From a virus, in the IMG/VR virus record IMGVR_UViG_3300042090_002370, positions 62,001 to 126,000 of that record: a stretch of 64,000 nucleotides of DNA; one strand, written 5' to 3'. Below, in pieces: positions 7,229-41,762 of the stretch. Each line of letters begins with the position of its first letter. The first letter of the stretch is position 1. Below the pieces are notes generated by a model. The model ran no database searches. It was not told the origin of the DNA and saw nothing but the letters and a program-made list of their open reading frames with translations. Position numbers and translations under genes: made by a program.

Positions 7229-7772
7229 CCTGCGGCGTTGCAGACGTTGTGAGGCCAGTTTGATGCGCCATCGCGTCCTTGCGGTGCTGCTCGTTGAGCT
7301 CCTCTGCGTGCTGGCAGAATGCCCGAAGCGTGGCCTGATCATTTTTGTGCTGCTGACTGAAGACGTAGATGCTGTTCCCTCTTCGGAAGTGCATCATGGT
7401 GGGATGTAGGTTGAAGTCGATACCCCTGATTAGCGGCTGACGTTGTAAGCCCACCTGTGGCATTCTCGTCTCTGGGTCGACGAGCGGTTTGCCATCGGGA
7501 CCCGTGATAGCCACACGCGTTTCTTGTACACCGAAGAAATAGGTAGGAAAGAGCGTGAGGATGTCGGCCATCATGATGGCCTGCGCTGAGACCGCTTGCT
7601 TCGGCGGGTCATTCAGGCCCTTGGGCGCGTATGGATCTCTGAAGTCGAGTTGGTATACGCGGCCCAGGTAAGTCGCTGGCCCGTCCTGGATGCGTATCCA
7701 CGTCCCGTTCTTCGGGTCGGTTATTGGCTCGCCTTCGGCGTGTCCGTGAACATTTTCGGTGTCGTTTGACAT
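7182..7772 (-). CDS. Hypothetical protein
   Basis: 196 residues, not recognised. The central part (about 20-140) reads as a folded domain with a zone of conserved-looking aromatic residues (ILTLFPTYFFGVQETR, MHFRRGNSIYVFS). The C-terminal about 55 residues form a charged helix rich in Gln, Glu and Arg. It overlaps the end of the SF2 helicase by 52 bases and its own end overlaps the glycosylase start, so all three are in one leftward operon. Function unknown. Confidence 0.78.
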   Translation of the reverse strand: MSNDTENVHGHAEGEPITDPKNGTWIRIQDGPATYLGRVYQLDFRDPYAPKGLNDPPKQAVSAQAIMMADILTLFPTYFFGVQETRVAITGPDGKPLVDPETRMPQVGLQRQPLIRGIDFNLHPTMMHFRRGNSIYVFSQQHKNDQATLRAFCQHAEELNEQHRKDAMAHQTGLTTSATPQDVAAEAERQRRVRRH

Positions 7773-13486: not shown

Positions 13487-16400
13487 ATGAGCTTCGTTGG
13501 ACCCGGTGGCGCAGTCGCTTCAGGCCCGGCTTCTGGCCTGCGGTTCGCGCAGTCGCGTGGGCGTATCCAGGGCTCCAATGTTACGGGCGTCAATTATCCG
13601 TCTCCGTTCTTCGATGTCGCCCACACCTACTTGCCCGTCACCGTCAAGGCGATGTTCAAATGGTGCCGCTATTACTTCCTCACGAATCCGCTCATCAATG
13701 CGGTAGTCTTCAAGTTGTCGGAGTACCCGGTCACCGACATCATCATTGACCATCCGTCGAATGAGGTGAAGAGGCGCTGGACCGACTACTTTCAAGACCA
13801 CCTTCGCTGGCAGCCATTTCGTGTAGAGGCCGGTCTCGATTACTTCGCATACGGTAACGGTTGTATCAGTCTAGGCTTCCCGTTCAAGAAGTATCTCTAC
13901 TGTAAGAACTGCGCGTTCCGGGATGAAGCGGGGAAGATTCGAGCGCAGTGGATCTTTACGAGCTTTCAGTTCCGCCTGACGTGCCCAAAGTGTGGCTACG
14001 TCGGCGACGCGCTCGCGAAGGACTTCTATTACAAGAATGCGAGCGGCATCAAGACCATCCGCTGGAATCCTGAAGACATCGAGATTACGTACAACGACAT
14101 CTCTGGGGAGTACACGTACTTCTACACCATCCCTGCAACGGTGCGTAATGACATTGTCATTGGCAGGAAGGACATTGTCGAAGGCGTGCCGCAGGTCTTC
14201 ATCCAAGCGATGCGTGAGCAGAAGGGTGTCATCTTCTCGAAGGACAACTTCTTCCACATGCGTAGGCCTACGTTGGCTACGCAGGACCGCGGTTGGGGCA
14301 CGCCACTTCTTCTGCCTGTTCTGAAGGACACGTTCTACCTCCAGGTCATGAAGAAGGCGCAGGAGGCCATCCTCCTCGAGCACATCGTTCCGTTGAGAGT
14401 TTTGTTTCCACAAGCCGGAAGCGGATCTAGCGACCCCTACTGCGTTTCGCCAGAGACTCTGGTCGAAACACCTTCTGGTTTGCTGCCGGCAGCAGAGGTT
14501 CGCGAGGGCGAGTTCCTTCGCAGCCACACGGGTGCGTGGCGACGCGTCGAGTACCAGAAGCGCCGTCAGATCAAGCCGGCCGAGAAGGTGTTCAAGTTCC
14601 AGATCGCCTCCCTTCCGGCCTTTCCGTTCGCGGTTTCGGAAGATCATCCGATCTTGGCGGTGCCTCGCGTATCCCGCAAGAAGCCGCGCGCTGGTCTGGT
14701 CGACCCGACTTTCATCGAAGCGAAAGCGCTCAAGAAGGGTGACTACGTTGCCTATCCCATCAAGCGCCAGATCCGTCGGGGTCAGATGCTCGATCTGGCA
14801 GACTACGTGACTGAGCGCGCAGCAACCGACAGCTGGGTCTACCGCCGGCTATCGCAGAGTGCTGCGGAAGCATACGAGTGGCTCGAGCAGAACGCAGATC
14901 CCGTGCACGCCTGGGGCGAACGGAAGAAGCTCCTGGAAGAGAAGGGATGGTCGGAGGCAGACTACGCTACTGCAGCAGCTGCGCGCCGCGAGCCTAAGGT
15001 AGATCGCGTGAGCCGCTTTCTGCCGATGTGCCCTGCTCTGGGTTCACTCATTGGCTACTACCTGTCCGAGGGATCGTACGGTGGTTCCACGGTTTCTTTC
15101 TCGCTGCACCTCGAGGAGAAGGACTTCGCAGAGCTCATTGAAAGCGCTGTGAAGAGGCTCGGGTTCCGTGGCGTGTCGCACTACGAGCGCCCAGAGCAAC
15201 ACGGTCGAACTGTTGTCATTGAGGATGTGATCCTATCCGAGCTGTTGGTCTCCATGTGCGGCTCCGGCTTTGCCGAGAAGCGCATCCCAGACGTTGTGTC
15301 GGAGGCTAGTGACGTCATCGTCCTGGATATGCTCCGTGCGCTGTTCAACGGAGATGGCTGTGACTTCAAGACAACCACAGATCGCGTCGGGTTGAAACTT
15401 GCGAACCCCTCGATGATCATGGAGGCGCGTCGACTCCTGCTCTCGTTCGGTCTCATCGGAGGCGTGGTCAAAGAGGAACCTACTGCCACCACGAAGTTCC
15501 GAACGACGAGTTACCAGCTGAACTACAACGGCCACGCCGCATATAAGCTACGGCACTTGTTCGGTAGGCCTGGGGGCTTTGACTGGCAGGAGCTGCCGCA
15601 GAAGAGCGGCCTCGTGCGTGGTGACTACGTGCTCTTGCGGATCGATGCCGTGCACGAAGTTGCCGATGTTCCCGAGGTCATCGGCTTTCAAATGGCGGAG
15701 GACAAGAGCTTCTGTGTCGCCGGTGTCGCGACACACAACACGACGATCAATCTCATCGACTGGCGTGACCAGGTCGCCGCTGAGATCGCCCGCTGGCGTT
15801 ATGACAACAACTACATACCCATCATGCCGTTGCCGCTAGGCAACCAGACCATTGGTGGTGACGGTCGTGCGCTCATGCTCACGCAGGAGATCACGACTTG
15901 GAGCGACCAGATTCTTAATGGCATGGGAGTGCCCGTGGAATTCATACGCGGCGGCCTTTCCTACGCCGGGACTAACGTCTCCATGCGCATGATGGAGAAC
16001 ATGTTCCTTGGGTACATCTCGAGGCAGAAGGCCCTCGCCAAGTTCGTAATGAAGCAGGTCTCTAGCTTCCTTGGTTGGCCGGAGGCGAACATTCGCTTCA
16101 AGCCATTCAAGATGGCCGACGATCTGCAGCGGAAGGCCTACTTGTTCCAGTTGAATCAGGCGAACAAGGTGAGCGACACGACGCTGCTAGCGGACAGTGA
16201 CCTCGACCAGGACGAAGAGAACGAGATTATGATTCGCGAGACGGACAAGCGAATCGAGGCGACGAAGAAACAGCAGCTGGCCATGGCCCGCATTCAGGGT
16301 GAGGCGCAGCAGATCATGATGAAGTTCCAGACTAAGGCACAGCAGGATGCGCAGCAGGCTATGGGCGCCCCCGCTGCGCCAGGCGAGCCTGGGGGTATAG

Positions 16401-16852
16401 AAATGCAGGGGCAGGGTGGAGGTCCAGGTGGCGCCGGCGGCGAAGGCGCGATGCGGACAATGCCTGTGGAGATGCAGGCCGCTGGGGCCGGCGCGAGCGG
16501 TATGGCTGCGCCACCCGCGCAGCCTACGGACCCGTCGCCGCAGGACTTTCTCTCGTCGGTCTCGAGCCAGCTTACGGGTGAGACGAGACTGAACCAGGAG
16601 CAGAGCCAGAAGGGTATTGACCTTCCCACTTATGCGATGGGCCAAGCAAAGCTACTCGTAACGATGGCTAAGCCTCAGCAGGAACAGGCCCTGAGAAACA
16701 TTCAGGCGATGAGCCCGGAGCTCGCCGACCTGGTGAAGCAGATGCTGGCTGAACTGCAGCCGCAGGAGCAGGCTGATAGCGGTAGTGCTGGCGTAGACAC
16801 GCGACCTCTACCGCAACAGCGTCCACCGCGACGAGCGGGCGGGATGGTGTGA
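13487..16852 (+). CDS. Portal protein interrupted by an intein
   Basis: 1121-residue precursor. Residues 1-318 and 752-1121 are the exteins, giving a 688-residue portal after splicing. The portal forms the dodecameric DNA gate at one capsid vertex. Support comes from FKWCRYYFLTNPLINAVV, a CxxC/CxxC zinc insertion (C139, C142, C166, C169), the SYAGTNVSMRMMENMFLGY segment, and a C-terminal Gln/Ala/Pro-rich tail common in portals. The intein occupies residues 319-751. The 5' end lies one base after the glycine-zipper gene. The portal call is strong, though made from pattern and context. Confidence 0.88.
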   Translation: MSFVGPGGAVASGPASGLRFAQSRGRIQGSNVTGVNYPSPFFDVAHTYLPVTVKAMFKWCRYYFLTNPLINAVVFKLSEYPVTDIIIDHPSNEVKRRWTDYFQDHLRWQPFRVEAGLDYFAYGNGCISLGFPFKKYLYCKNCAFRDEAGKIRAQWIFTSFQFRLTCPKCGYVGDALAKDFYYKNASGIKTIRWNPEDIEITYNDISGEYTYFYTIPATVRNDIVIGRKDIVEGVPQVFIQAMREQKGVIFSKDNFFHMRRPTLATQDRGWGTPLLLPVLKDTFYLQVMKKAQEAILLEHIVPLRVLFPQAGSGSSDPYCVSPETLVETPSGLLPAAEVREGEFLRSHTGAWRRVEYQKRRQIKPAEKVFKFQIASLPAFPFAVSEDHPILAVPRVSRKKPRAGLVDPTFIEAKALKKGDYVAYPIKRQIRRGQMLDLADYVTERAATDSWVYRRLSQSAAEAYEWLEQNADPVHAWGERKKLLEEKGWSEADYATAAAARREPKVDRVSRFLPMCPALGSLIGYYLSEGSYGGSTVSFSLHLEEKDFAELIESAVKRLGFRGVSHYERPEQHGRTVVIEDVILSELLVSMCGSGFAEKRIPDVVSEASDVIVLDMLRALFNGDGCDFKTTTDRVGLKLANPSMIMEARRLLLSFGLIGGVVKEEPTATTKFRTTSYQLNYNGHAAYKLRHLFGRPGGFDWQELPQKSGLVRGDYVLLRIDAVHEVADVPEVIGFQMAEDKSFCVAGVATHNTTINLIDWRDQVAAEIARWRYDNNYIPIMPLPLGNQTIGGDGRALMLTQEITTWSDQILNGMGVPVEFIRGGLSYAGTNVSMRMMENMFLGYISRQKALAKFVMKQVSSFLGWPEANIRFKPFKMADDLQRKAYLFQLNQANKVSDTTLLADSDLDQDEENEIMIRETDKRIEATKKQQLAMARIQGEAQQIMMKFQTKAQQDAQQAMGAPAAPGEPGGIEMQGQGGGPGGAGGEGAMRTMPVEMQAAGAGASGMAAPPAQPTDPSPQDFLSSVSSQLTGETRLNQEQSQKGIDLPTYAMGQAKLLVTMAKPQQEQALRNIQAMSPELADLVKQMLAELQPQEQADSGSAGVDTRPLPQQRPPRRAGGMV
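14441..15739 (+). mobile_element. Intein with LAGLIDADG endonuclease domain (in portal)
   Basis: 433 residues, from Cys319 to Asn751 of the precursor. Block A is CVSPETLVETPSGLLPAAEV, block B has VSEDHPILAV, the endonuclease has LIGYYLSEG and MLRALFNGDGC (the two DOD motifs), and the end is VAGVATHN followed by Thr as +1 residue. All splicing residues (Cys1, block B His, terminal His-Asn, +1 Thr) are present, so splicing should be active. Codon use is like the surroundings. Confidence 0.93.
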
Positions 16853-16933: not shown

Positions 16934-17155
16934 TCATTTGCATGATTCCTCGACGATGGCTTCGGCGAGGTCGACGCGCCACTGTTCATCGAGGCGCTTT
17001 CGGTCCTCGTAGGTCTGGTAGGGAACTGAGAGGAGGAACCGGTAGCAGCGGCTGACGCTCTCCGGCGACCGGTCCTCCACTTGGTTAGGTCCTGACCATA
17101 TCCAGCGACCGCGATCGTTCCACCAGTACCCGGTATGCGGGAACCATGTGCGCAT
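16934..17155 (-). CDS. Small hypothetical protein
   Basis: 73 residues, Trp- and Arg-rich (GYWWNDRGRWIWSGP), not recognised. Its ATG shares bases with the stop of the VWA gene (TGATG), so it is translated as the last member of the MoxR/VWA operon. The terminator starts directly after its stop codon. The tight coupling suggests a partner role with the upstream genes. Confidence 0.68.
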   Translation of the reverse strand: MRTWFPHTGYWWNDRGRWIWSGPNQVEDRSPESVSRCYRFLLSVPYQTYEDRKRLDEQWRVDLAEAIVEESCK

Positions 17156-18669
17156 CAGATACTGATGTCGTCTTCGTCATCCTCATCGGGCTCGTCCGGT
17201 AGAATGACTGCGGCCTTGCGTTGCTTCGGGTCCTCGGTGACGAAGACCGTGTGCCCGTAGCGGGCTGGGGCCTTGTTCCTGGCGTATCCGCCGAGGATTA
17301 GGCACCACACGATGTCCATGTACATCGGCGGCTTCTTGGGGGCCGCGCCGTCGCCGTCGGTGCAGTAGATGAGGATGTCGGGACGGGGGAAGAGCTTGTC
17401 GGCCGCCTTGATGGCTGGGATGAAGCTCGTGCCGCCGCGGCCGTGGGCCTCATTCAGCGTGCGGAAAAACTGCGGACCTACGCGCTTCCACGGCATGGCG
17501 ACGTCCGCGTCAGCATCTGTAAACCAGGCCTCGTCGACGCCGAGCGCCAGGAGGATGTGGTAGGCCTCGCGGATGCAGGCGTTGAGCTGCTCGATGTTCA
17601 TCGAGCCGGAGGTGTCTCGGACGATGGCGACTTCGGGCTGGTGCTCGATCATGCCTGGGCGGACGATGCCCCTCATGATGGAGCGTTTGGATGGGCGGGA
17701 CATCGAGAAGTCCTCCCCACCAGCCTGTACGCGACCGGTGGAGTGACGGATAACGTGCGCGAGTTCTGTCTGCCAGCGCACGTGCGGTTCCTCGATGAGG
17801 GCTTTGGCGAGCTCAGCCAGGCCTGCAGGAACGCTTCCGCGCCCATTCGCTTCGATGTGCGCTGCGATGTCCGCAGCCGTCTTTTTGGTGATGGTTTCCA
17901 TTTCGACGGCGCTGCGGCCATGTTCGGCGTTCAGCTTGTCGACAAGACGAGGATCGTCTGTTCCACCGGCTATGCTGCCGCAGTGGCCGGAGCAGACGCC
18001 GTTACCAAGTCCAGGTTTGGGCTCTTGCTTACTTTGACCTCCATCTTGGTCAGGCTGGCCGGCCGGCTCTTGCGTTTGCTGTGAGGGCGTGGCGCCATGC
18101 CCGCTTTGGCTTTGATCCTGCTTCTGCTGAGGATTTTGTCCGCCTCCCTGTTTATTAGGCGCTCCTTTGCCGGAGTTTCCGATGCTGGGCGTCGGCATGG
18201 TGGCGCCATTATGCTTCATCTGTAAAAGCCGGTCGTAGTACTCTTCTGTGGAAAGGCCCTCCGGTAACCCGACGTGCGCAGGAAAGATGGCGGGTCGCGT
18301 TGATTTCTCACCGGCGAGCTCCCAGATGCCTGTGTTGCGCATGTCAGGATTGATGGTGAGGTCGCCGGCCAGATTGAAGAGGTTTTTGTCTTCTACAGTC
18401 GCTCCGCGCTCGAAGTGCCTGCGCATGAAGTGGTTGACTTCATGGACGATGTCTGCGGCTAGCTCCTTGATGCTTGCTTCGTTGATCCACTGCGGGTCGT
18501 AAGCCAGTACCATCTGCGCTGTTACGCCCATGGTGCCAAGGCCTTCGACAGGCACGTAGATGAAACCGTGTACTACGCTCGCGAAGTATGGTGCATCGAA
18601 GACGACTGCTGCTCTCGCATAGGAAAGCTTGTCCTCGATAGTGTCCACAGATGGTATGAGCGAGATCAT
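17155..18669 (-). CDS. Metallopeptidase-like plus VWA-domain protein
   Basis: 504 residues. The N-terminal domain carries HEVNH (76-80), a HExxH zincin-like motif, in IVHEVNHFMRRHFE. A Gln/Gly/Pro-rich linker (about 155-215) follows, then a C-terminal VWA domain with the MIDAS-type DTSGS near residue 350 and RGGTSF about 60 residues on. This architecture is known for bacterial VWA-like proteins paired with MoxR ATPases. The C-terminus is acidic (DEPDEDDEDDISI). It overlaps MoxR by ATGA. Likely a metal-binding adaptor remodelled by the ATPase; its phage target is unknown. Confidence 0.88.
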   Translation of the reverse strand: MISLIPSVDTIEDKLSYARAAVVFDAPYFASVVHGFIYVPVEGLGTMGVTAQMVLAYDPQWINEASIKELAADIVHEVNHFMRRHFERGATVEDKNLFNLAGDLTINPDMRNTGIWELAGEKSTRPAIFPAHVGLPEGLSTEEYYDRLLQMKHNGATMPTPSIGNSGKGAPNKQGGGQNPQQKQDQSQSGHGATPSQQTQEPAGQPDQDGGQSKQEPKPGLGNGVCSGHCGSIAGGTDDPRLVDKLNAEHGRSAVEMETITKKTAADIAAHIEANGRGSVPAGLAELAKALIEEPHVRWQTELAHVIRHSTGRVQAGGEDFSMSRPSKRSIMRGIVRPGMIEHQPEVAIVRDTSGSMNIEQLNACIREAYHILLALGVDEAWFTDADADVAMPWKRVGPQFFRTLNEAHGRGGTSFIPAIKAADKLFPRPDILIYCTDGDGAAPKKPPMYMDIVWCLILGGYARNKAPARYGHTVFVTEDPKQRKAAVILPDEPDEDDEDDISI

Positions 18670-19862
18670 GGGTTTCGCGTTGTGTGTACGAAGAGAGATA
18701 TCTTGTCCGCGAACTTCTTGATGATCTTACGGGACACTGCGTCCATCGCCGATGAGTGCTTCGTGGTGAAGCCTGCGCGCATTAGAGGTACTGCGGCAGC
18801 GCATGCGGCATCGAGCATACCGTGCTTCTCCCAGGCATCGGTGAGCAATACCCATGCTTTCAACGCCCACTTTGTGCGCTCATCCTTGTCTGGCTTCGCA
18901 AGTGTCCAGGCGATGGCTTGGCCGTAGGCGGCGAAGCAGATATCAAGGCGGCGCTTGTCGGGCTCCCATCCGTTTGTCAGCATGTCTTCTGGACTCGGCA
19001 TGTTGGCTTTGAGGGTCCATTCTCCCCATGCAGCTGCTGGCCCTTTTCCAACGCACGCGGTGATGAACTCGAGACGCCACTCCTTACGGCCGATGCATTC
19101 GCAGGTGGCAGCGACGTTGGTGGCGAGGTCCCAGGTTCTGGGTGACGGCCACGCGCGGCCGCGGTCGACGTGACCGTCGCGCGGTATTTTCAGGAGCGTA
19201 TCCGGACCTAGGCTTTTGATGAACCCAGCGAATAGCCCTTGGTAGTAGGGGAAGACGTCGGGCCACTTCTTGCGGACCATCTCCTCGCCCTCATCGGCGC
19301 CGATGACCTGAGCAGCGTGGTTGCCCATTCGCCATGAGGCCCACTTGTCCGGCGACGGCGTAGGCATGTCGAAATGCATAAGGCGATTGGCCATAGGTAA
19401 GGATAGTGGCCAACCGCCTGCAGCTTCCTCTGGCGGGTTGGCGGCGGCCATGATGCGGATGCCTCCTGGTAGACGCTTGTTAGCCAGGATGCGGTCGCGC
19501 ACGAGACTCAGGCCTGCGCCCTGTACTGCCGGGCGTGCGCAGGTGAGCTCGTCTACGAAAATGACACCGCGCTTGGCCCTGATGAGATCTTGGATGCCGG
19601 GGTGCGCGATGTGTGTTGTCACACCGCCCTTGCCATCAGACATCGGAATGCCGCCGAGTTCTTCTGGTTGTGCTGTCGACAAGAAGAGCTCGCTTACGCT
19701 AAGCCCCACTGCGTGACCGGCCTCGCGGACGCTGTCGGACTTGCCAATGCCCGGCGACCCCCAGAGGATAGCAGGCGCACCCCAACGGCAATCATCGTCG
19801 TATGGGTTGTCCATCGGTGTGAGAAGTGCAACGGAGATGAGGTGTTCGACGGGGATGTCCAT
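18666..19862 (-). CDS. MoxR-family AAA+ ATPase
   Basis: 398 residues. Walker A is GSPGIGKS and Walker B GVIFVDELT, followed by sensor-like IMAAANPPEEAAGG and an arginine-bearing SLPMANRLMHFDMP, all typical of MoxR ATPases. The C-terminal about 200 residues form a helical lid and extension. MoxR proteins act as chaperones that mature or assemble metal-binding or VWA-containing complexes. Here the partner is the VWA protein encoded immediately downstream (ATGA overlap). Confidence 0.9.
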   Translation of the reverse strand: MDIPVEHLISVALLTPMDNPYDDDCRWGAPAILWGSPGIGKSDSVREAGHAVGLSVSELFLSTAQPEELGGIPMSDGKGGVTTHIAHPGIQDLIRAKRGVIFVDELTCARPAVQGAGLSLVRDRILANKRLPGGIRIMAAANPPEEAAGGWPLSLPMANRLMHFDMPTPSPDKWASWRMGNHAAQVIGADEGEEMVRKKWPDVFPYYQGLFAGFIKSLGPDTLLKIPRDGHVDRGRAWPSPRTWDLATNVAATCECIGRKEWRLEFITACVGKGPAAAWGEWTLKANMPSPEDMLTNGWEPDKRRLDICFAAYGQAIAWTLAKPDKDERTKWALKAWVLLTDAWEKHGMLDAACAAAVPLMRAGFTTKHSSAMDAVSRKIIKKFADKISLFVHTTRNP

Positions 19863-21435: not shown

Positions 21436-24400
21436 ATGATTGCAGCGGCCATGGCGTATTTGGACCCCAAGAAGGCGTTCGAACACCTGAAGGAACGCGT
21501 GCTCGAGGGCATACAGGACCAATTTGCCAAGAACCCCATTGTCGGGAAGAAGCAGTCGCTGCACCTTGAGGCGCTCGAAGTACGCGACAAGTTAGGTGAG
21601 GCAGACGACATCCGCGCACAGCACAAGGCAAAGGTGGAGAACGACACCTGGGCGGTGCCTATTTATGCCACACTGGCGCTCAAGGATAACGAGACCGGAA
21701 AGGCGTTAGACCGTCGAACTATCCGCATCGCGGAGATTCCGAAGACGACTAACAGGCACTCGTACATCATCGATGGGCAGGAGTATCAGGTCAACAACCA
21801 GTGGCAATTGCGGCACGGCATTTATGTAAAGCGCCGTGTGAACGGTGAGCTTGAGGCTGCGTGCAACGCGGGTCGCGGGTTCGATGTTGTGCTGGACCCG
21901 GCAACCAAAGTCTTTCGAATGGAGCACGGTAAGAGCCGCGGTAAGCTCCCCATCTACCCATTCCTCAAGACGCTTGGTGTGAGCGACGAAGATCTCATGA
22001 AGTCGTGGGGCAAGGAGATGTTCGAAGCGAATCAGAAGGCGCCGAAGTCGGACATTGCGCTCGAGAAATTCTACAAGGCGGATAAGCCGTGGGCAGGTAC
22101 TCCAACCAAGGAGGTCGCTGCCGAGCACTTCTACGACATGATGGAGAAGACGCATCTCCGTCCAGAGTCCACGCAACTCACGTTAGGGCGGCCCTTCACG
22201 CATGTATCCGGCGAGGCGCTGAAGCTCGCAACTGAGAAGATGCTCAAGGTACAGGCGGGGCACCCAGAGGATGACCGCGATTCACTGGTCTTCAAGGATC
22301 TACGTACCGCCGGTGACTTCGCCTATGACGCCATTCTACATCAGCGCAAGAATATTGAGACACGTGCCGGGCGACAGATCGACAAAGCAAAGGACGCCTA
22401 TGACGTCATGAAGTTCGACATGTTCAACAAGCCCATCAAGGGGGCGTTGTCCTCAGCGAACGCGGCGGCTATGCCGGCATCGCAGATCAATCCACTAGAG
22501 ATGGCGTCGTCTGCGATGCAGACTACTATCATGGGCGCAGGCGGTATTCGTACCGCGCAGCAGGTACAGCATGAAGCGAAGTTTGTGAATCCCAGCCATC
22601 TCGGTTTTCTTGATCCGCTCAACACACCGGAGGGTGAGAAAACAGGTGTCACATTGCGGCTGCCTATCGGTGTACGCAAGGTCGGGCACGAGGCGAAGAT
22701 TCCTCTCTACAACCTGCTCTCCAAAAAAACCGAGCTTGTCTCTCCAGGCGAGTTCATGGAGGCAAACATCGTCCTGCCAGATCAGGTGAAGTGGGAAGAT
22801 GGCGTACCGCATCCGCTGCACCATACAGTTCGCGCGAGCTCTAAGGGCAACGAGATTCGCGACGTGAAATTCGAGGATGCGCACTACGTTATGCGCAGCC
22901 CTTCTCAGCTTTTCAACATGACTTCGAACCTCATTCCATTCCTGGCGAACACGAGCGGTAACCGCGCGTCTATGGCGAGCAGGCATATGGAACAGGCGGT
23001 CTCGCTCTTGCATCGTGAGGCCCCACTTGTCCAGGTAGGTACAGGCTCCGACAAGGAAGGCATCGACACCTTCGAGAACATCATGGGCTACCAGGCGTCC
23101 CACGCTGCTTCGGAAGAAGGCAAAGTTGTAGCAGTGAACAGGGACGGCATTATCATTGAAGACCGCCTTGGTAAGAAGCACGAAGTTCAGCTCTACAACA
23201 ACTACCCGCTCAATGACGCCAAGAGTGTGATGCACTCTACACCCGTTGTCGCCGTCGGCGATCATGTGAAGAAGGGTCAGCTCATTGCAGACACGAACTT
23301 CTCCAAGAATGGGACGCTCGCTCTCGGCACGAACTTGCGCGTCGCGTACCTGCCCTTCAAAGGGTACAACTTCGAGGACGGTGTTGTCATTAGTGACAGC
23401 GCTGCCAAGAAGCTCTCGAGTGAGCATCTGCAGAAGCTGATGATGCCACTCGACCAGGAGACCATACTCGACAAGAAGCGCTTCCACATCTCCAACCCCG
23501 GGTTGATGACGAAGGAACAGTACGAGAAGATGGACTCGAACGGCATAGTGCGGGTGGGGCAGAAGGTCCAGCCAGGCGACCCGCTCGTTGCAGCGATGCG
23601 ACCGTACAAATTGAAGGACCGTACGGGTATGGCGGCTGTGCGCAAGGCCATGGGCGGTCGGCACGATGACCGCAGCATGCGGTGGGACAGCGACTTCGAG
23701 GGCGAGGTCGTAGGCGTACATCGCAGCGACAAAGGGCTGACCGTTCATGTTCGCACGGTCGAGCCTATGCAGGTCGGCGACAAGATCAGTAATCGTTATG
23801 GTGGGAAAGGTATCGTCACCAAGATTCTGCCCGACCCTGAGATGCCGCACACGAAGGACGGTAAGCATATAGAGGTAGCGCTAAACCCCAGCGGCATACC
23901 GGGGCGCATGAACGTGGGGCAGGTCTTCGAGACCTCCGTCGCCAAGATCGCCGAGAAGACCGGCAAGCCCTACATCGTGAAGAACTTCGACACGAACATG
24001 GACGTCATCGCCAAGGTCCAGGCTGACCTGAAGGCGCACGGGCTCTCGGACACCGAGGAGCTCAAGGATCCTGCGACTGGGCAGATCCTTGGGCAGGTGA
24101 CGGTGGGGCCGCAGCACATCTTCAAACTCGTTCACCAGATCGACAAGAAGCTTGCAGTGCGCAGCGGCAGTGGGACCCTGCCTGGGGCAGCGGCGGAGCA
24201 TTACGACTTGAATCTGCAGCCCATGGGTGGCAAGAGCACTGGCGGGCAGTCGATGGGCACGCTGGGGCTCTTCGCGCTCCTGGCGCACGGCGCCAAAGCA
24301 AACATCCGGGAGATGCAGACATACAAGTCGGAGGGCCCGGACCCGCAGACCGACCCGGCGAAGAGGTGGCCGAGCGACCACCACCGGATCTGGGCAGCCA

Positions 24401-27400
24401 TTCAGACTGGGCACCCACTACCGACGCCCAAGCCGACTTTTGCTTACCGCAAGTTCGAAGACATGCTACGCGGGAGTGGCATCAACATCGAGAAGAAGGG
24501 GCATGACCTTATCCTCTCGCCAATGACGGACCAACACATACGAGCGCTGGCGAAGAACGCACTGCCGCACCCTGCGGACATGCTGAACTCGAAGATGGAC
24601 AAGAACGGAGACCCTAAGCCTAAGGCCGGTGGGCTCTGGGATGAGAAGCTTACTGGTGGGTTGGGCGGTCGTCAGTGGACGCGAATCGAGCTATCTGAAC
24701 CGCTGCCAAACCCCATCTTCGAGAAGCCTATCAAGGCACTGACCGGGCTCTCTCCAAAAGACTTTAATGCTGTTCTGCATGGAAGTAAGGGCGTCACGGC
24801 GAATGGCAACATCACGGAGGCCGGCGCCGGCGTAACTGGCGGAGCGGGCATCAAGGTTTTGCTAGACCGCGTCAACGTTGCGCGCGATCTCGCCAAGGCC
24901 GAGGCTCAGCTGAAGATCGTCAAGGGGCAGAGCGTCGACCGTGTACTGAAGAAGGTAAAGTACTTGCGGGCGCTCAAGCAGATTGGGGTGACCCCAAGCG
25001 AGGCGTACATCCTTCACAACATCCCTGTCATGCCGCCCATCATGCGACCGGTATCGAAACTGCCGGATGGGTCACCTAAGTTCGACGATATCAACCAGCT
25101 CTATTCCGACTTCGCGAAGATCAACGATAAGTTGAAGGACCCCATCTTGGTGAGGAATCTCACTGACGAGGGGAAGTCGGATCTCCGCAAGGACTTCTAC
25201 GACGGCGCCAAGATGTTCATGGGCATGGGGCTCCAGTACGGAGATGCCAAGCACAAGGGGCTACTGCACCAGATTGCCGGCAGCTCACCGAAACACGGCT
25301 ACTTCCAGGACAAGCTCATCGCCCGCAAGCAGGATCTGACGATGCGCTCGACCATCGTCCCCGAGCCAGGTCTCGATTTGGATGAGGTGGGTCTGCCGAA
25401 GCACGCCGCGCTCGAGCTTTTCAAGCCCTTTGTCGTTCGCCAGCTCAAGCAGATGGGCGCCATACAGAACGAGGTGCAGGGCGCGGCCTTTGTAGAGAAG
25501 AAGAGCCCACAGGTCTGGCGTGCGCTCGATCGTGTGATGGCGGAGCGACCTATTCTCCTAAAGCGAGACCCTGCGCTGCACAAGTACAATGTGCAAGCCT
25601 TCCGTGCACGGCCTATTGAGGGCGACGCTGTGCGCATACACCCGCTCGTGACGGGCGGATACAACGCCGATTTCGACGGCGACACGATGAGTGCCTTCGT
25701 GCCCATCACGCACGATGCGGTGAACGAGGCCGTACGGATGTTCCCCTCTCATAACCTCTTCAGCGAGGCGACTGGCCGGCTTATGTACCAGCCGACGCTC
25801 GAGAGCGCCCTCGGACTCTACAAGCTGTCGGTAGTTGGTAAGGACTCCGGGCAGAAGTTTGAGCACGCTGGCCTGGCACTTGACGCCGTGCGTTCGGGGA
25901 AGCTTGGGTATACCGATGTCGTACACATCGGTGGCAAGAAAACCACGCCGGGGCGCATTCTGCTCTCCAGCGCGGTTCCGGAGGCTATGCAGAGCGAGAT
26001 GCTGCATGATCTTCACTATCGAATCGACGGTAAGTCAGCGGGCCTGAGCGCGCTTCTGACAGGCATTGCTAAGCATTACGGCCCGCAGTATGGAGAGGTC
26101 GTCAACAAGCTGAAGGATCTCGGCAACACTACGACATTCGGAGCAGCAGCGGTTCCGCGGGCTACTAGCGCTGGGCACGCGATGTCTTTTAGCACGTTGG
26201 GTAAGAACCCAGTCGCAACACTCAATAAGAAGATGGATGTCTTCATCCCAGTTGGGGCGCACACACTCTCGCTTAAGGACTTCGAGCCGGACAAGGCGTC
26301 GAGGGACCACGTGCTGTCAGCAGCTCACAAGGTCGTAGAGAAATACGCCGACGACCCGAAAATGACTAAGGACGAGAGGGATCGCAGAACCATTGCCGTA
26401 TACGAACACGCCGCCGACGAGATGAAGGCCCTACATGAAAAGAAGGAAGAGAAAGACCCAAGCAACCTCTACACAATGTACAAGGCTGGCGTGAAGCCTG
26501 GCTGGGACCAGTACAAACAGATGGTTCTAGCACCCATGATTTACAAGGATTCCGCTGATCGGAAGATTCCGATACCTGTGACCAAGAGCTACGCAGAGGG
26601 GCTAGACGTAGGCAGCTACTGGACTCAGATGCACGGCGCCCGACGCGGTTCGGTCATGAAGGTGCAAGAGGTCAGCGGTCCAGGCTATCTATCCAAGTTG
26701 CTCATGAACAACATGATGCACATTCTTGTGAACTCTCCTGATTGCGGGACGAGCAAGGGCATCGTCCTGGACGCCAATGAGGCAGATATTCATGATCGAT
26801 ACCTGCAGCAGGAGTTCACACACGGCAAGGTTACTTTTCCTGCGGGTACGCTACTCACCCCAAGCGTTGTCGGGAAGATCCGAGCGGCGAAGAAGGACGC
26901 CAAGCTGCTTGTACGAAGCCCGCTGAAATGCGAGGACCCGAAAGGGATTTGCCAGATGTGCTCAGGGCTTGGCTCGAGTGGTCAGCACTACGACCTGGGG
27001 CACAATCTCGGCGTGCAGTCTGCACAAGCCGTTGGTGAACGCGGCATCCAGTTAGCGCTCAAGAGCTTTCATACAGGTGGCGTAGGCGAACACAAGGGCG
27101 GCTCGAAGCTGCTCAACTCCTTCGAGCGCTTCAAGCAGCTTATGTACTTGCCTGAGAAAGTTCAGGACGAGTCCTCCCTAGCGATGAAGACTGGGAAGGT
27201 TGAACAGATCGTGCCTACGTCAACAGGAGTTGACATCTTCATCGGCGGGCAGAAGCACCATGTGGGCCGCGATACGAAGGGCATGCCGCTGCATCAGCCG
27301 CTGCCAGGCGCAGAGGCGGTAGAGGGCTATGTCCACTGGAAGGTTCCGGTGGTCGGGCAGCACCTCAAGGCAGGGGACACGCTCTCCGACCCCAACCGTA

Positions 27401-27915
27401 CGCTGCTCAACCCCCATCATCTCTATGCGGCGACAGGCTCCATTGAGGAGGTACAGAATCACCTCACGAATGAGATCTACGGGCTCTACCAGAAGGAAGG
27501 CATCAAGCGTCGAGCCATTGAAACGGTCGTGCGCGCGATGAGTAACCTAACCAAGGTCAATGACCCTGGCGAGCATCCCGATGTCCTCCGCGGTGAGTTC
27601 TACCCGCTGGCACAGGTGCAGCATATGAACCAAGAGCTGCTGCGCAACAAGAAGCGGCCTATCGAACACGAGCCGGTGATGAAAGGCATCAGCGCTATGC
27701 CTCATGCCCTCATTGAGGATTGGATGGCGAAGTTGCAGCATGAACATCTGCGAACGACGCTCACTGAGGCCGCGGCGATGGGCGGCATTTCCCACCTCCA
27801 TTCTACTCACCCGATTCCAGCCATTGCTTTCGGCGCCGAATTCGGGCTTACTTCCAAGGACGCGCTAAAGCCAGGGCATGAACACTTACGTGATGTGCCG
27901 GCGCATTACTACTAG
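21436..27915 (+). CDS. Fused beta/beta-prime multi-subunit RNA polymerase
   Basis: 2159 residues holding both catalytic RNA polymerase subunits in one chain. Beta part: NPSHLGFLDPLNTPEGEKTG (385-404), IPFLANTSGNRASMASRHME, GYNFEDGVVIS (643-653), VGDKISNRYGGKGIV (from 780) and NPSGIPGRMNVGQ (817-829). Beta-prime part: RPILLKRDPALHKYNVQAF, the catalytic NADFDGD (1410-1416) with three Asp that hold Mg, C1770, C1832, C1839 and C1842 matching the four zinc ligands of bacterial beta-prime, and the trigger-helix region AQAVGERGIQLALKSFHTGG (from 1863). The N-terminal zinc site of beta-prime is absent. No alpha, omega or sigma gene is seen in the window. Starts: ATG 21436 or ATG 21451. Confidence 0.95.
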   Translation: MIAAAMAYLDPKKAFEHLKERVLEGIQDQFAKNPIVGKKQSLHLEALEVRDKLGEADDIRAQHKAKVENDTWAVPIYATLALKDNETGKALDRRTIRIAEIPKTTNRHSYIIDGQEYQVNNQWQLRHGIYVKRRVNGELEAACNAGRGFDVVLDPATKVFRMEHGKSRGKLPIYPFLKTLGVSDEDLMKSWGKEMFEANQKAPKSDIALEKFYKADKPWAGTPTKEVAAEHFYDMMEKTHLRPESTQLTLGRPFTHVSGEALKLATEKMLKVQAGHPEDDRDSLVFKDLRTAGDFAYDAILHQRKNIETRAGRQIDKAKDAYDVMKFDMFNKPIKGALSSANAAAMPASQINPLEMASSAMQTTIMGAGGIRTAQQVQHEAKFVNPSHLGFLDPLNTPEGEKTGVTLRLPIGVRKVGHEAKIPLYNLLSKKTELVSPGEFMEANIVLPDQVKWEDGVPHPLHHTVRASSKGNEIRDVKFEDAHYVMRSPSQLFNMTSNLIPFLANTSGNRASMASRHMEQAVSLLHREAPLVQVGTGSDKEGIDTFENIMGYQASHAASEEGKVVAVNRDGIIIEDRLGKKHEVQLYNNYPLNDAKSVMHSTPVVAVGDHVKKGQLIADTNFSKNGTLALGTNLRVAYLPFKGYNFEDGVVISDSAAKKLSSEHLQKLMMPLDQETILDKKRFHISNPGLMTKEQYEKMDSNGIVRVGQKVQPGDPLVAAMRPYKLKDRTGMAAVRKAMGGRHDDRSMRWDSDFEGEVVGVHRSDKGLTVHVRTVEPMQVGDKISNRYGGKGIVTKILPDPEMPHTKDGKHIEVALNPSGIPGRMNVGQVFETSVAKIAEKTGKPYIVKNFDTNMDVIAKVQADLKAHGLSDTEELKDPATGQILGQVTVGPQHIFKLVHQIDKKLAVRSGSGTLPGAAAEHYDLNLQPMGGKSTGGQSMGTLGLFALLAHGAKANIREMQTYKSEGPDPQTDPAKRWPSDHHRIWAAIQTGHPLPTPKPTFAYRKFEDMLRGSGINIEKKGHDLILSPMTDQHIRALAKNALPHPADMLNSKMDKNGDPKPKAGGLWDEKLTGGLGGRQWTRIELSEPLPNPIFEKPIKALTGLSPKDFNAVLHGSKGVTANGNITEAGAGVTGGAGIKVLLDRVNVARDLAKAEAQLKIVKGQSVDRVLKKVKYLRALKQIGVTPSEAYILHNIPVMPPIMRPVSKLPDGSPKFDDINQLYSDFAKINDKLKDPILVRNLTDEGKSDLRKDFYDGAKMFMGMGLQYGDAKHKGLLHQIAGSSPKHGYFQDKLIARKQDLTMRSTIVPEPGLDLDEVGLPKHAALELFKPFVVRQLKQMGAIQNEVQGAAFVEKKSPQVWRALDRVMAERPILLKRDPALHKYNVQAFRARPIEGDAVRIHPLVTGGYNADFDGDTMSAFVPITHDAVNEAVRMFPSHNLFSEATGRLMYQPTLESALGLYKLSVVGKDSGQKFEHAGLALDAVRSGKLGYTDVVHIGGKKTTPGRILLSSAVPEAMQSEMLHDLHYRIDGKSAGLSALLTGIAKHYGPQYGEVVNKLKDLGNTTTFGAAAVPRATSAGHAMSFSTLGKNPVATLNKKMDVFIPVGAHTLSLKDFEPDKASRDHVLSAAHKVVEKYADDPKMTKDERDRRTIAVYEHAADEMKALHEKKEEKDPSNLYTMYKAGVKPGWDQYKQMVLAPMIYKDSADRKIPIPVTKSYAEGLDVGSYWTQMHGARRGSVMKVQEVSGPGYLSKLLMNNMMHILVNSPDCGTSKGIVLDANEADIHDRYLQQEFTHGKVTFPAGTLLTPSVVGKIRAAKKDAKLLVRSPLKCEDPKGICQMCSGLGSSGQHYDLGHNLGVQSAQAVGERGIQLALKSFHTGGVGEHKGGSKLLNSFERFKQLMYLPEKVQDESSLAMKTGKVEQIVPTSTGVDIFIGGQKHHVGRDTKGMPLHQPLPGAEAVEGYVHWKVPVVGQHLKAGDTLSDPNRTLLNPHHLYAATGSIEEVQNHLTNEIYGLYQKEGIKRRAIETVVRAMSNLTKVNDPGEHPDVLRGEFYPLAQVQHMNQELLRNKKRPIEHEPVMKGISAMPHALIEDWMAKLQHEHLRTTLTEAAAMGGISHLHSTHPIPAIAFGAEFGLTSKDALKPGHEHLRDVPAHYY

Positions 27916-27920
27916 GAGCC

Positions 27921-29195
27921 ATGCTGAATTGGGCATCGAAATTTCGCACGTCGATGACGAGCGTGGCTGGTCATGGGCCGGCTAAGATTTGCCAAGGGCG
28001 CATCGTCAACATCAATCTGCTCAAGTGGACGGTCGATGTTATCGCGCAATTCGACAGGAAGCGTTACTTCAACATCCAGGTGAGCTCGCCATATCTGCAC
28101 CATGCCAGCGGCGAGGGCATCTACGTCATGCCTGAGGTCAATGCGACCGTCATGGTCTGCATCCCCTCGGACAGCACGGCGCCCTTCGTTCTAGGTTTCA
28201 TTATGCCGACTGAGACCGTCGACTCCTCTACGGACGACGCGCCTCTCGGTACGACGCAGCACGCTCAGGCACCGGCGAACGCGACTGACTCCTCCTATGC
28301 CGCCGGACGCACAGCGAATCCTGGTGACATCGTTATGCGCTCGAGGGACAACAACTTTGTCATTCTGCATCGAGGGGGCGTGCTCCAGGTGGGTGCGACT
28401 CCGCTCGCGCAGCGCCTCTATATCCCTCTGCAGAATCTCGTGATGGACATCAGCGAGAACTATGAGCACCAGAATTCTGGTGGTGCCATCAAGTGGGGTA
28501 TACAGGAAGGCCCTTCGCAGACGACGCACCCCACGCAGTTCGTCCAAACCTTCCGTGTCTTTGCCGAGAATCAGTACGCGGACGTGCGCGTGACGTGCGG
28601 CGACATCACCGGACCATACGGGGACCCAGACGGCGGTGTTGCCGCTGCTGCGGATGGCTTGGGGCAGAAGAACAACACGGCTACAGCTAGCAACTGCGTT
28701 CTCTTCGAGATCGCCGTTACACCGCAAGGCTTCAACGTCAGCACTGGCGTGCCCAACGATGTTCCGGTTTCAGCGTCTACCTTCCGCTTCGCCTACGACA
28801 GAACTGGCAACGTTTTTTTACGTAATGCCGGCAACTTCTCCCAGCAAACGCAGGGTAAATACACGCTTTCGGTAGTCGGTGACCTCAGCGTTTCTTCGCA
28901 GGGTGTCGTGGAGCTCACATCACCCAAGAGCGTCAAGATCAACGGCGGAAAAGAGACGGACATTATAGGGACTGTCGTACGGCTGAATGCTGGGAAGAAC
29001 GCCGTGGCCTCTAAGGGCGACATGGTGCGTATCGATGTCGCAACCACTACGCCATTACAGGTCGGGCCGACTCCTATCCCGGTTGTCGGCTCTCCAACCG
29101 GCCCGTGGAGCATCGCTCCTGGAACACCCATCATCTTGACTGGCACGCTCTGGGGTTCGATTGTTGTCTGCCAAAACAGTTCGGTGCTGACGTGA
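27921..29195 (+). CDS. Probable baseplate spike/hub protein (OB-fold N-terminus)
   Basis: 424 residues. Residues about 18-95 read as an OB fold like those of gp5/VgrG/gpV spikes (GRIVNINLLKWTVDVIAQF, GIYVMPEVNATVMVCIP, APFVLGFIMP). The middle is a variable domain and the C-terminus (about 290-380) has short beta repeats (LSVVGDLSVSSQGVVELTSP, KSVKINGG) suggestive of a beta-helical needle. It starts 5 bases after the RNA polymerase stop and overlaps the next gene by GTGA. Assignment rests on pattern, so it is moderate. Confidence 0.6.
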   Translation: MLNWASKFRTSMTSVAGHGPAKICQGRIVNINLLKWTVDVIAQFDRKRYFNIQVSSPYLHHASGEGIYVMPEVNATVMVCIPSDSTAPFVLGFIMPTETVDSSTDDAPLGTTQHAQAPANATDSSYAAGRTANPGDIVMRSRDNNFVILHRGGVLQVGATPLAQRLYIPLQNLVMDISENYEHQNSGGAIKWGIQEGPSQTTHPTQFVQTFRVFAENQYADVRVTCGDITGPYGDPDGGVAAAADGLGQKNNTATASNCVLFEIAVTPQGFNVSTGVPNDVPVSASTFRFAYDRTGNVFLRNAGNFSQQTQGKYTLSVVGDLSVSSQGVVELTSPKSVKINGGKETDIIGTVVRLNAGKNAVASKGDMVRIDVATTTPLQVGPTPIPVVGSPTGPWSIAPGTPIILTGTLWGSIVVCQNSSVLT

Positions 29196-33526: not shown

Positions 33527-33774
33527 CCCTTCTTGAGCGCCAGTCTTGTGATCTTCCAGCCGCTCTCCTTGGCGTACTCCCTCATCAGGGACGTCAGCGA
33601 GCTCCACACGGACGGCATGAGATTGCCAGGCGCGAGTTGTAGTGAGCACTCGTAGGACGCGTCTTTGGGTATGCACCGAGCATTGGATGTGAACACTGGA
33701 CCGGCGGCCTGTACACAACTCCACATGTTGTTGAGCAGCTCCTGCGCGTCTGCGGTCTCTGTCGGTGGAAACAC
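33466..33774 (-). CDS. Possible counter-oriented small protein
   Basis: 102 residues from GTG 33774, or 86 residues from ATG 33726 which has AGGAG 12 bases upstream. It fills the 240-base gap between two rightward genes and overlaps the end of the upstream one by about 60 bases. Middle reads well (SLTSLMREYAKESGWKITRL). Not recognised. Lack of a rightward frame in the gap supports it; the overlap and weak start lower confidence. Confidence 0.45.
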   Translation of the reverse strand: MFPPTETADAQELLNNMWSCVQAAGPVFTSNARCIPKDASYECSLQLAPGNLMPSVWSSLTSLMREYAKESGWKITRLALKKGHVALAISPSSASSNKSKNR

Positions 33775-33782
33775 GTGAGCCT

Positions 33783-35615
33783 ATGACTATCTATCATCAC
33801 TACGGACCCAACGGCTACCAGGAGCTGGATAGCGAAGACGAACCGGAGCTCAGCGACGACGCGCTCCGAGCGGCCTACGATTGGATGAACGCGCCGGAGT
33901 CCTTCGCGGACTTCAGTCTAGTTGACGAGGCCTATGTAGAGGACGGCGACATCCCACCTATCCTGCCTTCGGAATTTACCGAGTTCGCCTTCCGGATGCC
34001 GTTGGTTGATGGAAGTGGCTGGGGCCCGTTTGATTTCGGGCCCAGACGCCACATGCGGCAGCTTTACGACACACCGGCCAAGCGCGTGTTGCTCTTCTGT
34101 GCACGGCAGGTAGAAAAGTCGACGATGCTGGGTAACCGCTCGCTGACGTACTCTTGCATGATTCCTGGCTTCCGTACGCTATACGTGTCGCCCTCTGCTA
34201 CGCAGACCAAAACTTTCTCCGTCGACCGAATCAAGGAGCCACTCGAGACCAGCGATATCCTAAAGGCGTACACGACGTCGCTTCTGCAGCAGAACGTCTT
34301 CGAGAAGCAGTTCGTCAACCGCTCGAAGATCACGCTGCGTTACGCCTTCCTCAACGCCGACCGCTGCCGCGGTATCCCTGCGCACGGTATCTTCATCGAC
34401 GAGTTCCAGGACATCCTGTCTGACTGCGTTCCAGTCATCGAGCAGGCCTCCAGCCATGCGCCCGAGAACCTAAAGCGTTTCATCTACGCCGGCACGCCCA
34501 AGGGCCTCGATAACGTACTCGAGTACTACCGTTCAGGTACTTCTAAAGGCCAGCCCATGAGCACCATGGGCGAGTGGGTAGTGCCCTGCGACCGACATGG
34601 TGGCGAGGGCGGACGTTTCTGGAACATCCTCGGCGAGAAGAACATTCAGAAGAAGGGGCTCTCTTGTGAGAGATGCCACCAACTCATCGACCCGATGCAC
34701 ACAGATGCACAATGGGCGCAGCTACAAGAAGAAGGTGTATTCGAGTCCTATCGTATTCCGCAGCTCATGGTCCCGTGGAAAGAGTGGAGCGAGATCTACC
34801 TCGACTACGGGCGATACGAGCGAGCCAAGTTCTACAACGAAGTCCTTGGTATATCTTACGATTCAGGACTCCGTCCGTTGACGCGGCAGCAGGTGCGTGA
34901 GTGCTGCCGACCCAACATCTCAATGCACCCGAGCGAGCTCGATAAGTACCGCCAGCACGGCATGCCAGGAAACACAATCTTCGCTGGTATTGATTGGGGC
35001 ACGGGCGAAAATTCCTTCACAGTCCTCTGTCTTGGTACGTACATAGAAAGCCGCTTTCGCATCTTCTATATCCACCGCTTCATCGGGGAAGACGTCGACC
35101 CCGTTCCGCAGCTGCAGAAGATCTGCGAGATGCTCTCGTACTTCAATGTGCGCATCATTGCCACGGACTATGGTGGTGGCTTTCACAGCAACGATCACCT
35201 GACGCGGAAATTCGGATACAAGCGCGTGATGAAGTATCAATATATGGCCCGCGCTCGAAAGAAGGTCTTGTGGAACCCGGCCTTCCGCCGCTGGCAGATC
35301 GTTCGCACCGAGCTCATGTCGGACGTCTTCAATGCCATCAAGAGGAAGCAGATAGACCTGCCGCGCTTCGAGGAGTTCGAGGACCCGTACGCCAATGACT
35401 GCCTGAACATTTACGCCGAGTACAACGACACACTGCGCATGCTCCAGTACCGGCACCGCCCCGACAAGCCCGACGACTCCTTACACGCTATCCTCTACTG
35501 CCTGGTTGGTTCGATGATTGTATACCCCAGGCCAGATTTGATAATGCCGCAGAGGGAGTTCCCTGGACAGGGACCGCTACGCAGTGCCTATAGGGGGCCT
35601 TTAGATCAAGGTTGA
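33783..35615 (+). CDS. Terminase large subunit
   Basis: DNA-packaging motor, ATPase plus nuclease. ATG 33783 gives 610 residues; GTG 33765 is an alternative. Walker A-like CARQVEKST (106-114), Walker B with catalytic Glu GIFIDEFQD (about 202-210), and coupling motif AGTPKG follow in order. The RNaseH-like nuclease has GIDWGTGEN (from 402), IIATDYGGG (about 458) and DDSLHAILY (about 563). A zinc-like insertion (CDRHGG, CERCHQ) lies between the domains, recalling lambda gpA-type or SPO1-like enzymes. It docks on the portal. Confidence 0.95.
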   Translation: MTIYHHYGPNGYQELDSEDEPELSDDALRAAYDWMNAPESFADFSLVDEAYVEDGDIPPILPSEFTEFAFRMPLVDGSGWGPFDFGPRRHMRQLYDTPAKRVLLFCARQVEKSTMLGNRSLTYSCMIPGFRTLYVSPSATQTKTFSVDRIKEPLETSDILKAYTTSLLQQNVFEKQFVNRSKITLRYAFLNADRCRGIPAHGIFIDEFQDILSDCVPVIEQASSHAPENLKRFIYAGTPKGLDNVLEYYRSGTSKGQPMSTMGEWVVPCDRHGGEGGRFWNILGEKNIQKKGLSCERCHQLIDPMHTDAQWAQLQEEGVFESYRIPQLMVPWKEWSEIYLDYGRYERAKFYNEVLGISYDSGLRPLTRQQVRECCRPNISMHPSELDKYRQHGMPGNTIFAGIDWGTGENSFTVLCLGTYIESRFRIFYIHRFIGEDVDPVPQLQKICEMLSYFNVRIIATDYGGGFHSNDHLTRKFGYKRVMKYQYMARARKKVLWNPAFRRWQIVRTELMSDVFNAIKRKQIDLPRFEEFEDPYANDCLNIYAEYNDTLRMLQYRHRPDKPDDSLHAILYCLVGSMIVYPRPDLIMPQREFPGQGPLRSAYRGPLDQG

Positions 35616-40861: not shown

Positions 40862-40862
40862 G

Positions 40863-41762
40863 ATGGTCGACAAGGCACAGCAGATGGACGAGTTCCTCTC
40901 TGACTTCTACGGAACGGGCGCTGCGGTAAAGACTGCCGCCGCGAACCAGGAAGACCTCGAGAAGCAGGCCTCCATTGATCTCTTCATGAAGCTTGCTACC
41001 GAGCAGAACATCGACCTCGGTAAGATGGAGCCCAAGCAGGTAGAGGCGCTCTACAGTAACTGGGTGAAGGCCGCTTCCGCTCCCGCCGCCGGGGCGGCTG
41101 AGGAAGAAGAAGAAAAGGAAAAGCACGAGGAGGCCAAGAAGGAGCACGAGGAGAAGAAGGCGCAGGCGGAGAAGGTCGCCGAAGCGGACTTCCTCGGGCG
41201 CGTCATGGCTCATGCGTACTGCCAGGAGATGCGCAAGATCGCCGAAGCAGCCGCCGACCCTGCGGTCAAGGAAGCAGGCAAGGTTCGCGACACACAAGCG
41301 GGCTATGTAGCAGCCAAGGGCATTGGCCATCGGGCGCATGAGGCCCTGAAGAAGGGGCTCGATCATGTGAAGGGCCATATGGCCAATACTGGTGCAGCGG
41401 CACATCATGCGGCACATAGCTCTGGTCCTGTAACCGAAGGCAAGGCAAAGGCGATTGGCGCCGGTATCCACGCTGCGGGCGCAGCAGGAGCGGCCGGTGC
41501 TGGCGCGGCAGCTGCGCACCACTTCGGCAAGGACAAGGAAGGCTCGGCTATCGACGGGCTTGCTGCTGAGCAGGCTGTGAAGGTTGCGTTCGAGGGAAAC
41601 TTCGACCCCGAAGAGGCAGGTCGCAAGATCGCAGCGGTCCTCGAGCTCGGGCTTGCCGCGCCGAGCGAGAAGATTGCATCCGCTCCCGACTACGCGGCGG
41701 CGGTGGGTATCCGCGCTCTCGAACTACTCGAGGTCGCTGGCTACCCAGTTACGTGGTCGTAG
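40863..41762 (+). CDS. Scaffold/core-like protein
   Basis: 299 residues. N-terminal helix with K-x-A sites (AAVKTAAANQEDLEKQASID), a highly charged Glu/Lys segment (about 78-105: EEEEEKEKHEEAKKEHEEKK), then Ala/His/Gly-rich region and a helical C-terminus. The charged helical nature, and position between protease and capsid protein, fit a scaffolding or prohead core protein. Starts one base after the protease stop. Confidence 0.7.
   Translation: MVDKAQQMDEFLSDFYGTGAAVKTAAANQEDLEKQASIDLFMKLATEQNIDLGKMEPKQVEALYSNWVKAASAPAAGAAEEEEEKEKHEEAKKEHEEKKAQAEKVAEADFLGRVMAHAYCQEMRKIAEAAADPAVKEAGKVRDTQAGYVAAKGIGHRAHEALKKGLDHVKGHMANTGAAAHHAAHSSGPVTEGKAKAIGAGIHAAGAAGAAGAGAAAAHHFGKDKEGSAIDGLAAEQAVKVAFEGNFDPEEAGRKIAAVLELGLAAPSEKIASAPDYAAAVGIRALELLEVAGYPVTWS

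Follow-up and report, generated by a model that had tools for sequence, protein, structure and literature searches.

Background

A phage gene in which the beta and beta' subunits of RNA polymerase (RNAP) are read as one protein raises the question of how such an enzyme assembles, how it finds promoters and at which point of the infection it acts. Cellular RNA polymerases are held to require alpha as the platform on which they assemble. The gene lies in a window of 64,000 bases (the whole stretch of DNA analysed), which corresponds to positions 62001-126000 of a 163,859-base IMG/VR virus record, IMGVR_UViG_3300042090_002370; coordinates are those of the window unless the record is named. The original prediction, made from the sequence alone, proposed a polymerase of a deep-branching phage lineage, with no alpha, omega or sigma gene nearby and possibly carried in the virion. 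The explanation favoured here, which we consider likely, is that of a packaged early polymerase working as a single chain, free of alpha and omega and dependent on sigma.

Results and discussion

Organisation of the polymerase gene

The frame at 21436-27915 (plus strand) runs for 2159 codons without an internal stop. Its first five residues (MIAAA) are not present in most relatives, which begin with MAYLDP at residue 6, and for this reason the ATG at 21451 is the probable start. Pfam domains of RpoB and then of RpoC follow each other along the 2159-residue chain, namely Rpb2 domain 3 (residues 349-409), Rpb2 domain 6 (560-911, E 1.9e-58), Rpb1 domain 2 (1298-1435, E 1e-24) and Rpb1 domain 5 (1722-2047, E 3.8e-18), with Rpb1 domain 1 also matched. 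The claim that the motifs of both subunits are complete in one frame is borne out by the open frame, by these domains, with the beta half aligning through Rpb2 domains 3 and 6, and by the NADFDGD motif and the cysteines of the downstream zinc site. This was the only RNAP match in the whole, albeit incomplete, record.

The beta (RpoB-like) part covers residues 6-1019 (21451-24492, plus strand), as given by alignment to Salmonella RpoB and by Pfam Rpb2_3 and Rpb2_6, while the beta' (RpoC-like) part covers residues 1020-2159 (24493-27912, plus strand) and is recognised by Pfam, alignment and fold match to beta' chains. As read from the sequence, a single polypeptide contains both, the one following the other directly at the point where bacterial beta stops and beta' starts, with the catalytic parts all kept. 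At the junction (residues 1013-1029, GSGINIEKKGHDLILSP; 24472-24522, plus strand) the beta C-terminal motif GINIE passes directly into the beta' N-terminal motif LILSPMTD, as judged against Salmonella RpoB and RpoC; nothing but the end of beta and some 20 residues at the start of beta' is lost there, and no linker is present.

The catalytic NADFDGD occupies residues 1410-1416 (25663-25683, plus strand), and its aspartates D1412, D1414 and D1416 are invariant in 74/74 phage sequences, these being the long sequences among the 81 nearest relatives; so is the trigger-loop histidine H1879 (27070-27072, plus strand). In the Salmonella alignment the N-terminal zinc-binding domain of beta' is absent, leaving one of the two bacterial zinc sites, whose cysteines C1770, C1832, C1839 and C1842 (26743-26961, plus strand) are kept in 70-73 of the 74. 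The large inserts of the enterobacterial enzyme are absent from both parts, and the beta' part has no SI3-type insert. Retained are both catalytic barrels, the bridge-helix and trigger-loop region, the second zinc site, the flap tip (its helix equivalent to residues 731-745 by alignment to Salmonella RpoB) and the clamp helices; flap tip and clamp helices are the places where sigma docks in bacteria. In the equivalent of the Rif region (residues 345-370 in the same alignment), E. coli beta H526, R529 and S531 correspond to S359, Q362 and T364, and on account of these replacements the polymerase is predicted to be rifampicin-resistant, which it probably is. An AlphaFold2 model of residues 560-1500, spanning the junction (pLDDT 84.7, pTM 0.75), was matched by Foldseek to bacterial RNAP chains of both kinds, beta and beta', and a model of residues 1040-2159 (pLDDT 79.3) matched beta'.

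Conservation of the fusion

A profile scan of IMG/VR yielded 448 relatives, the best 80 of which, together with a first scan, gave 81 loci, a sample that includes near-duplicates and is biased towards close relatives. The single-chain state is not peculiar to this phage: a single ORF crosses the junction in 81/81 of these nearest relatives. The 72 complete loci encode single chains of about 2050-2235 residues, except for three with long inserts. Three relatives carry intein-like inserts exactly at the catalytic motifs, of 522 residues after NADFDGD (L014:9929-17944) and of 344 residues in the GNKG motif of the beta barrel (L076:7217-14713), each with a LAGLIDADG domain, and of 407 residues after the trigger-loop histidine (L086:10007-17401).

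In the sister group, composed of Salmonella phage Arash, Vibrio phage D69 and their kin, the junction is likewise fused and beta' is cut elsewhere. A second scan, with Arash Gp206 as the query, gave 27 loci of this group. Here a cut follows the catalytic barrel of beta', and roughly half of the loci have another ahead of it, but beta and beta' are joined in each ORF that contains the junction. The simplest reading of these gene structures is a single fusion in the common ancestor, followed by later cuts within beta'. Within the Arash group, the gaps between RNAP pieces range from 0 bases to several kb (L237-L253, L015, L016), and one locus is also cut inside beta. An annotated homing endonuclease lies within the RNAP region of Vibrio phages D181 and D148.

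Origin of the polymerase

A tree was built from 38 rows (21 phage and 17 bacterial enzymes, with archaea and eukaryotes left out) and 1930 columns. Three groups are each set apart by a branch of their own, the 19 fused phages (support 99), Arash with D69 (100) and the 17 bacteria (100). Phage and bacterial enzymes are parted by a branch supported at 100, with a length of 1.63 + 0.56 changes per column in this quick tree, with the caveat that the long Arash/D69 branch joins the bacterial one. Identity to the nearest cellular matches is 25-31%, and these are scattered over many phyla. The proposal of a deep-branching phage lineage, as opposed to a recent capture, is upheld by this tree. Beta and beta' are also found in one frame on a bacterial MAG contig (L204:3-4898, isolate CSMAG_1505), apparently a separate fusion of cellular rpoBC.

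Sigma, alpha and omega

Pfam profiles gave a match to alpha in 0/30 records (positive controls 13/14) and a match to omega above cut-off in 0/13. By contrast, a profile built on Gp10, the sigma of Arash virions, together with two of its relatives detected a divergent sigma-70 family in 22/30 relative records (E 1e-49 to 1e-136), and in 10/10 IMG/VR records of at least 183 kb. Region 3 (Sigma70_r3) was recognised in 19/20 members of the family, region 4 in 4/20 and a PHROG sigma in 18/20, and region 2 is too diverged for Pfam in all members except one. The gene occupies one syntenic place, behind a group of genes for the cell-wall hydrolase and small proteins bearing a tag. Three relatives (G001, G004, G015) have a homologue of the gene found here at record 162016-163305, and their sigma lies about 2 kb past it. 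In the present record no other large forward gene comes after 162016-163305, and the end at 163859 is reached about 0.55 kb on.

Within this record, Pfam sigma regions 2 and 4 had no match anywhere, the clade profile A2 run on six frames with filters off found no sigma (best E 3.4), and the ORFs at the syntenic position did not encode one. As the contig stops just before the place of sigma, its apparent lack is best read as truncation, and this phage's own sigma gene is expected a short way past the right-hand end of the 163,859-base contig. The original prediction therefore stands as regards alpha and omega and falls as regards sigma; the search of the rest of the genome that it had proposed recovered neither sigma nor alpha here, and only the former in the relatives. 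No promoter motif shared upstream of genes was found, 51 upstream regions giving only A/G-rich, ribosome-site-like words.

The tag mentioned above is a short peptide, AFxDELxKIA, that recurs close to the ends of a number of proteins, for the most part downstream of the cell-wall hydrolase; it occurs at record 153952-160134 and 40422-40907, both beyond the window, and in relatives L133-L144. Strict matches number 4 in this record against 0.05 expected and 14 in relatives against 0.26, and it is possibly a packaging or cleavage tag.

Gene neighbourhood and packaging

The RNAP gene is found downstream of the portal gene, in the same neighbourhood, in 21/21 loci compared. Here the portal gene (13487-16852, plus strand), which is the next conserved plus-strand gene upstream, contains an intein-like insert with LAGLIDADG. 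Five bases downstream of the RNAP, a weakly baseplate-spike-like protein is encoded at 27921-29195 (plus strand), with a homologue in 19/21 loci; further on are the terminase large subunit (TerL; 33765-35615, plus strand, PF05876) and the major capsid protein (MCP; 44230-45354, plus strand, phrog_2522, no Pfam match). A helicase homologue with SNF2 and Helicase_C domains, counterpart of Arash Gp217, is at record 157972-160134.

Other genes of the window include an AAA ATPase paired with a DUF2201/VWA putative metallopeptidase between portal and RNAP (17155-19862, minus strand; 14/21 loci), the latter labelled HNH endonuclease by PHROGs, and a homologue of Arash virion protein Gp222 (38036-40861) bearing an intein-like insert with LAGLIDADG and Hint. 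A papain-family cysteine protease gene, unusual for a phage, is located at 61886-62863 (minus strand), and a uracil-DNA glycosylase superfamily gene at 6335-7342 (minus strand), near primase and DnaB-type helicase genes.

The Arash virion proteome lists 3516 spectra for Gp206 (the highest of all), 1210 for Gp216, 467 for the sigma Gp10 and 1148 for the helicase Gp217 (PMC10585845). With lengths of 1525, 606, 234 and 472 residues, these crude counts correspond to about 2.3, 2.0, 2.0 and 2.4 spectra per residue, which is compatible with near-equal amounts of the four proteins in Arash virions. The hint that the polymerase may be packaged draws support from the proteome of this distant relative and from the conserved placement beside the portal gene; by analogy, the virion of the single-chain phage probably contains its RNAP as well.

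Proposed mode of action and alternative explanations

Under the favoured explanation, the chain would fold back on itself into the usual crab-claw, and the covalent link between beta and beta' would stand in for alpha as the assembly platform. The enzyme would be produced late, alongside the structural proteins, and packaged, so as to enter the cell together with the DNA. There, the core would join a phage factor of the sigma-70 family (in Arash packaged too), and early transcription would begin without the host RNA polymerase, in a rifampicin-resistant manner; middle and late genes may be served by the phage enzyme or by the host polymerase.

Of the alternatives, the one deserving most attention, although unlikely, is that synthesis of the enzyme during infection serves middle or late transcription and that virion copies are carry-over. 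The Arash authors themselves allow for carry-over, and their list of 116 virion proteins contains ribonucleotide reductase and other metabolic enzymes (PMC10585845); against this, the RNAP chains, Gp10 and the helicase give some of the strongest signals, at counts that are similar once corrected for length, the other sigma of Arash, Gp196, is absent from the portion of Table 2 consulted (PMC10585845), and the RNAP gene is flanked by portal and baseplate-type genes in the loci that were compared. Somewhat less probable still is a hybrid enzyme, in which the phage core borrows sigma, and perhaps alpha or omega, from the host. A contig with no gene for any of the three would fit this, but a dedicated syntenic sigma is present in every searched relative record of at least 183 kb, the contig stops just before its place, and the clamp-helix residues that contact sigma are unlike those of Salmonella.

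That beta and beta' work as two chains, through an internal start or protease cleavage at the junction, we hold to be very improbable. The phage chain can indeed be cut elsewhere, as it is on either side of the beta' catalytic barrel in the Arash group, but the frame has no internal stop, residues 1015-1029 are exactly 15 long in 74/74 phage sequences, and 0/108 junction-holding loci are cut there. An internal stop or re-start had been named among the observations that would undo the single chain; an in-frame start with a Shine-Dalgarno-like sequence near the junction occurs in 11/73 sequences, inside the 4-40 range of control regions, and re-starting was rejected for want of a signal exceeding them. 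A recently captured host rpoBC locus that then fused, as in Helicobacter, would explain the bacterial rpoB-rpoC gene order; its probability is negligible given the well-supported branch that parts phage from bacterial enzymes and the low identity of the best cellular matches, drawn from many phyla. With the phage enzymes outside the bacterial clade, recent capture is ruled out.

Significance and comparison with known systems

The lineage (2020) and packaging in a relative (Arash) are already known. The universality of the fusion, cuts that spare the junction, a syntenic sigma throughout the clade and the reason for its apparent lack in this contig appear undescribed, the search for an earlier report of the fusion having returned none in the open-access literature, with subscription papers and preprints outside its scope. 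A widespread fused enzyme that has no detectable alpha and keeps a sigma partner makes the replacement of alpha by a tether directly testable, and the cultured relatives Arash and D69 make such testing practical. It is also a possible tool, as a two-gene, probably rifampicin-resistant polymerase programmable by sigma. Tentatively, and at slightly less than even chances in our estimation, the whole clade may have the smallest sigma-dependent holoenzyme of the cellular type known, consisting of fused beta-beta' and its own sigma, with no alpha or omega, injected ready to transcribe.

The lineage appears to correspond to the multi-subunit-RNAP-encoding Caudovirales (mReC), for which Weinheimer and Aylward (2020) describe a deep separate RNAP clade from tailed phages with large genomes, with full beta and beta', NADFDGD, a great distance from cellular RNAP and a location among structural genes (PMC7481178). 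As in that group, the present phage contig has beta and beta' regions of more than 800 residues with NADxDGD, an RNAP apart from the bacterial ones in a tree without archaea and eukaryotes, and the Caudovirales hallmarks portal, terminase and MCP. The descriptive families differ, since MCP PF07068 and TerL PF03237, reported there for 8 and 17 of 97 contigs (PMC7481178), were not found here, where phrog_2522 and PF05876 take their place. The passages of that study consulted here do not state a one-chain beta-beta' and give no analysis of sigma, alpha or virions (PMC7481178).

Arash (Gp206/Gp216; PMC10585845) and D69 have homologous RNAPs, about 33% identical to this one; these have the junction fused, adjoin the portal gene, lack a detected alpha and are accompanied by the sigma family of the relatives. 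They differ in that beta' is cut after the catalytic barrel, its C-terminal third being a separate gene 0.6-5 kb off, so that the Arash version consists of two chains; its authors call Gp206 simply 'beta' (PMC10585845). The phiKZ/AR9-type RNAPs likewise have the two barrels of cellular enzymes and no alpha or omega, and their virion form acts early, but they consist of four or five chains, in two sets, with no recognisable sigma (PMC7598289), in contrast to one chain, one set in an incomplete record and a sigma homologue that is missing from this truncated contig and present in the relatives.

The fusions in Helicobacter and in engineered E. coli are host enzymes, which assemble together with alpha and omega and fall within the bacterial clade. 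They share with the phage enzyme the one-chain beta-beta' in the same order, and they are described as active when tethered, with alpha present (cited in PMC1750930). In crAss-like and YonO phages, as here, both catalytic barrels are on one chain. The crAss-like RNAP is packaged in the virion. According to the mReC study, RNAPs of the crAss-like phages are not recognisable by RpoB/RpoC profiles (PMC7481178), whereas the protein described here strongly matches the RpoB/RpoC domains of Pfam.
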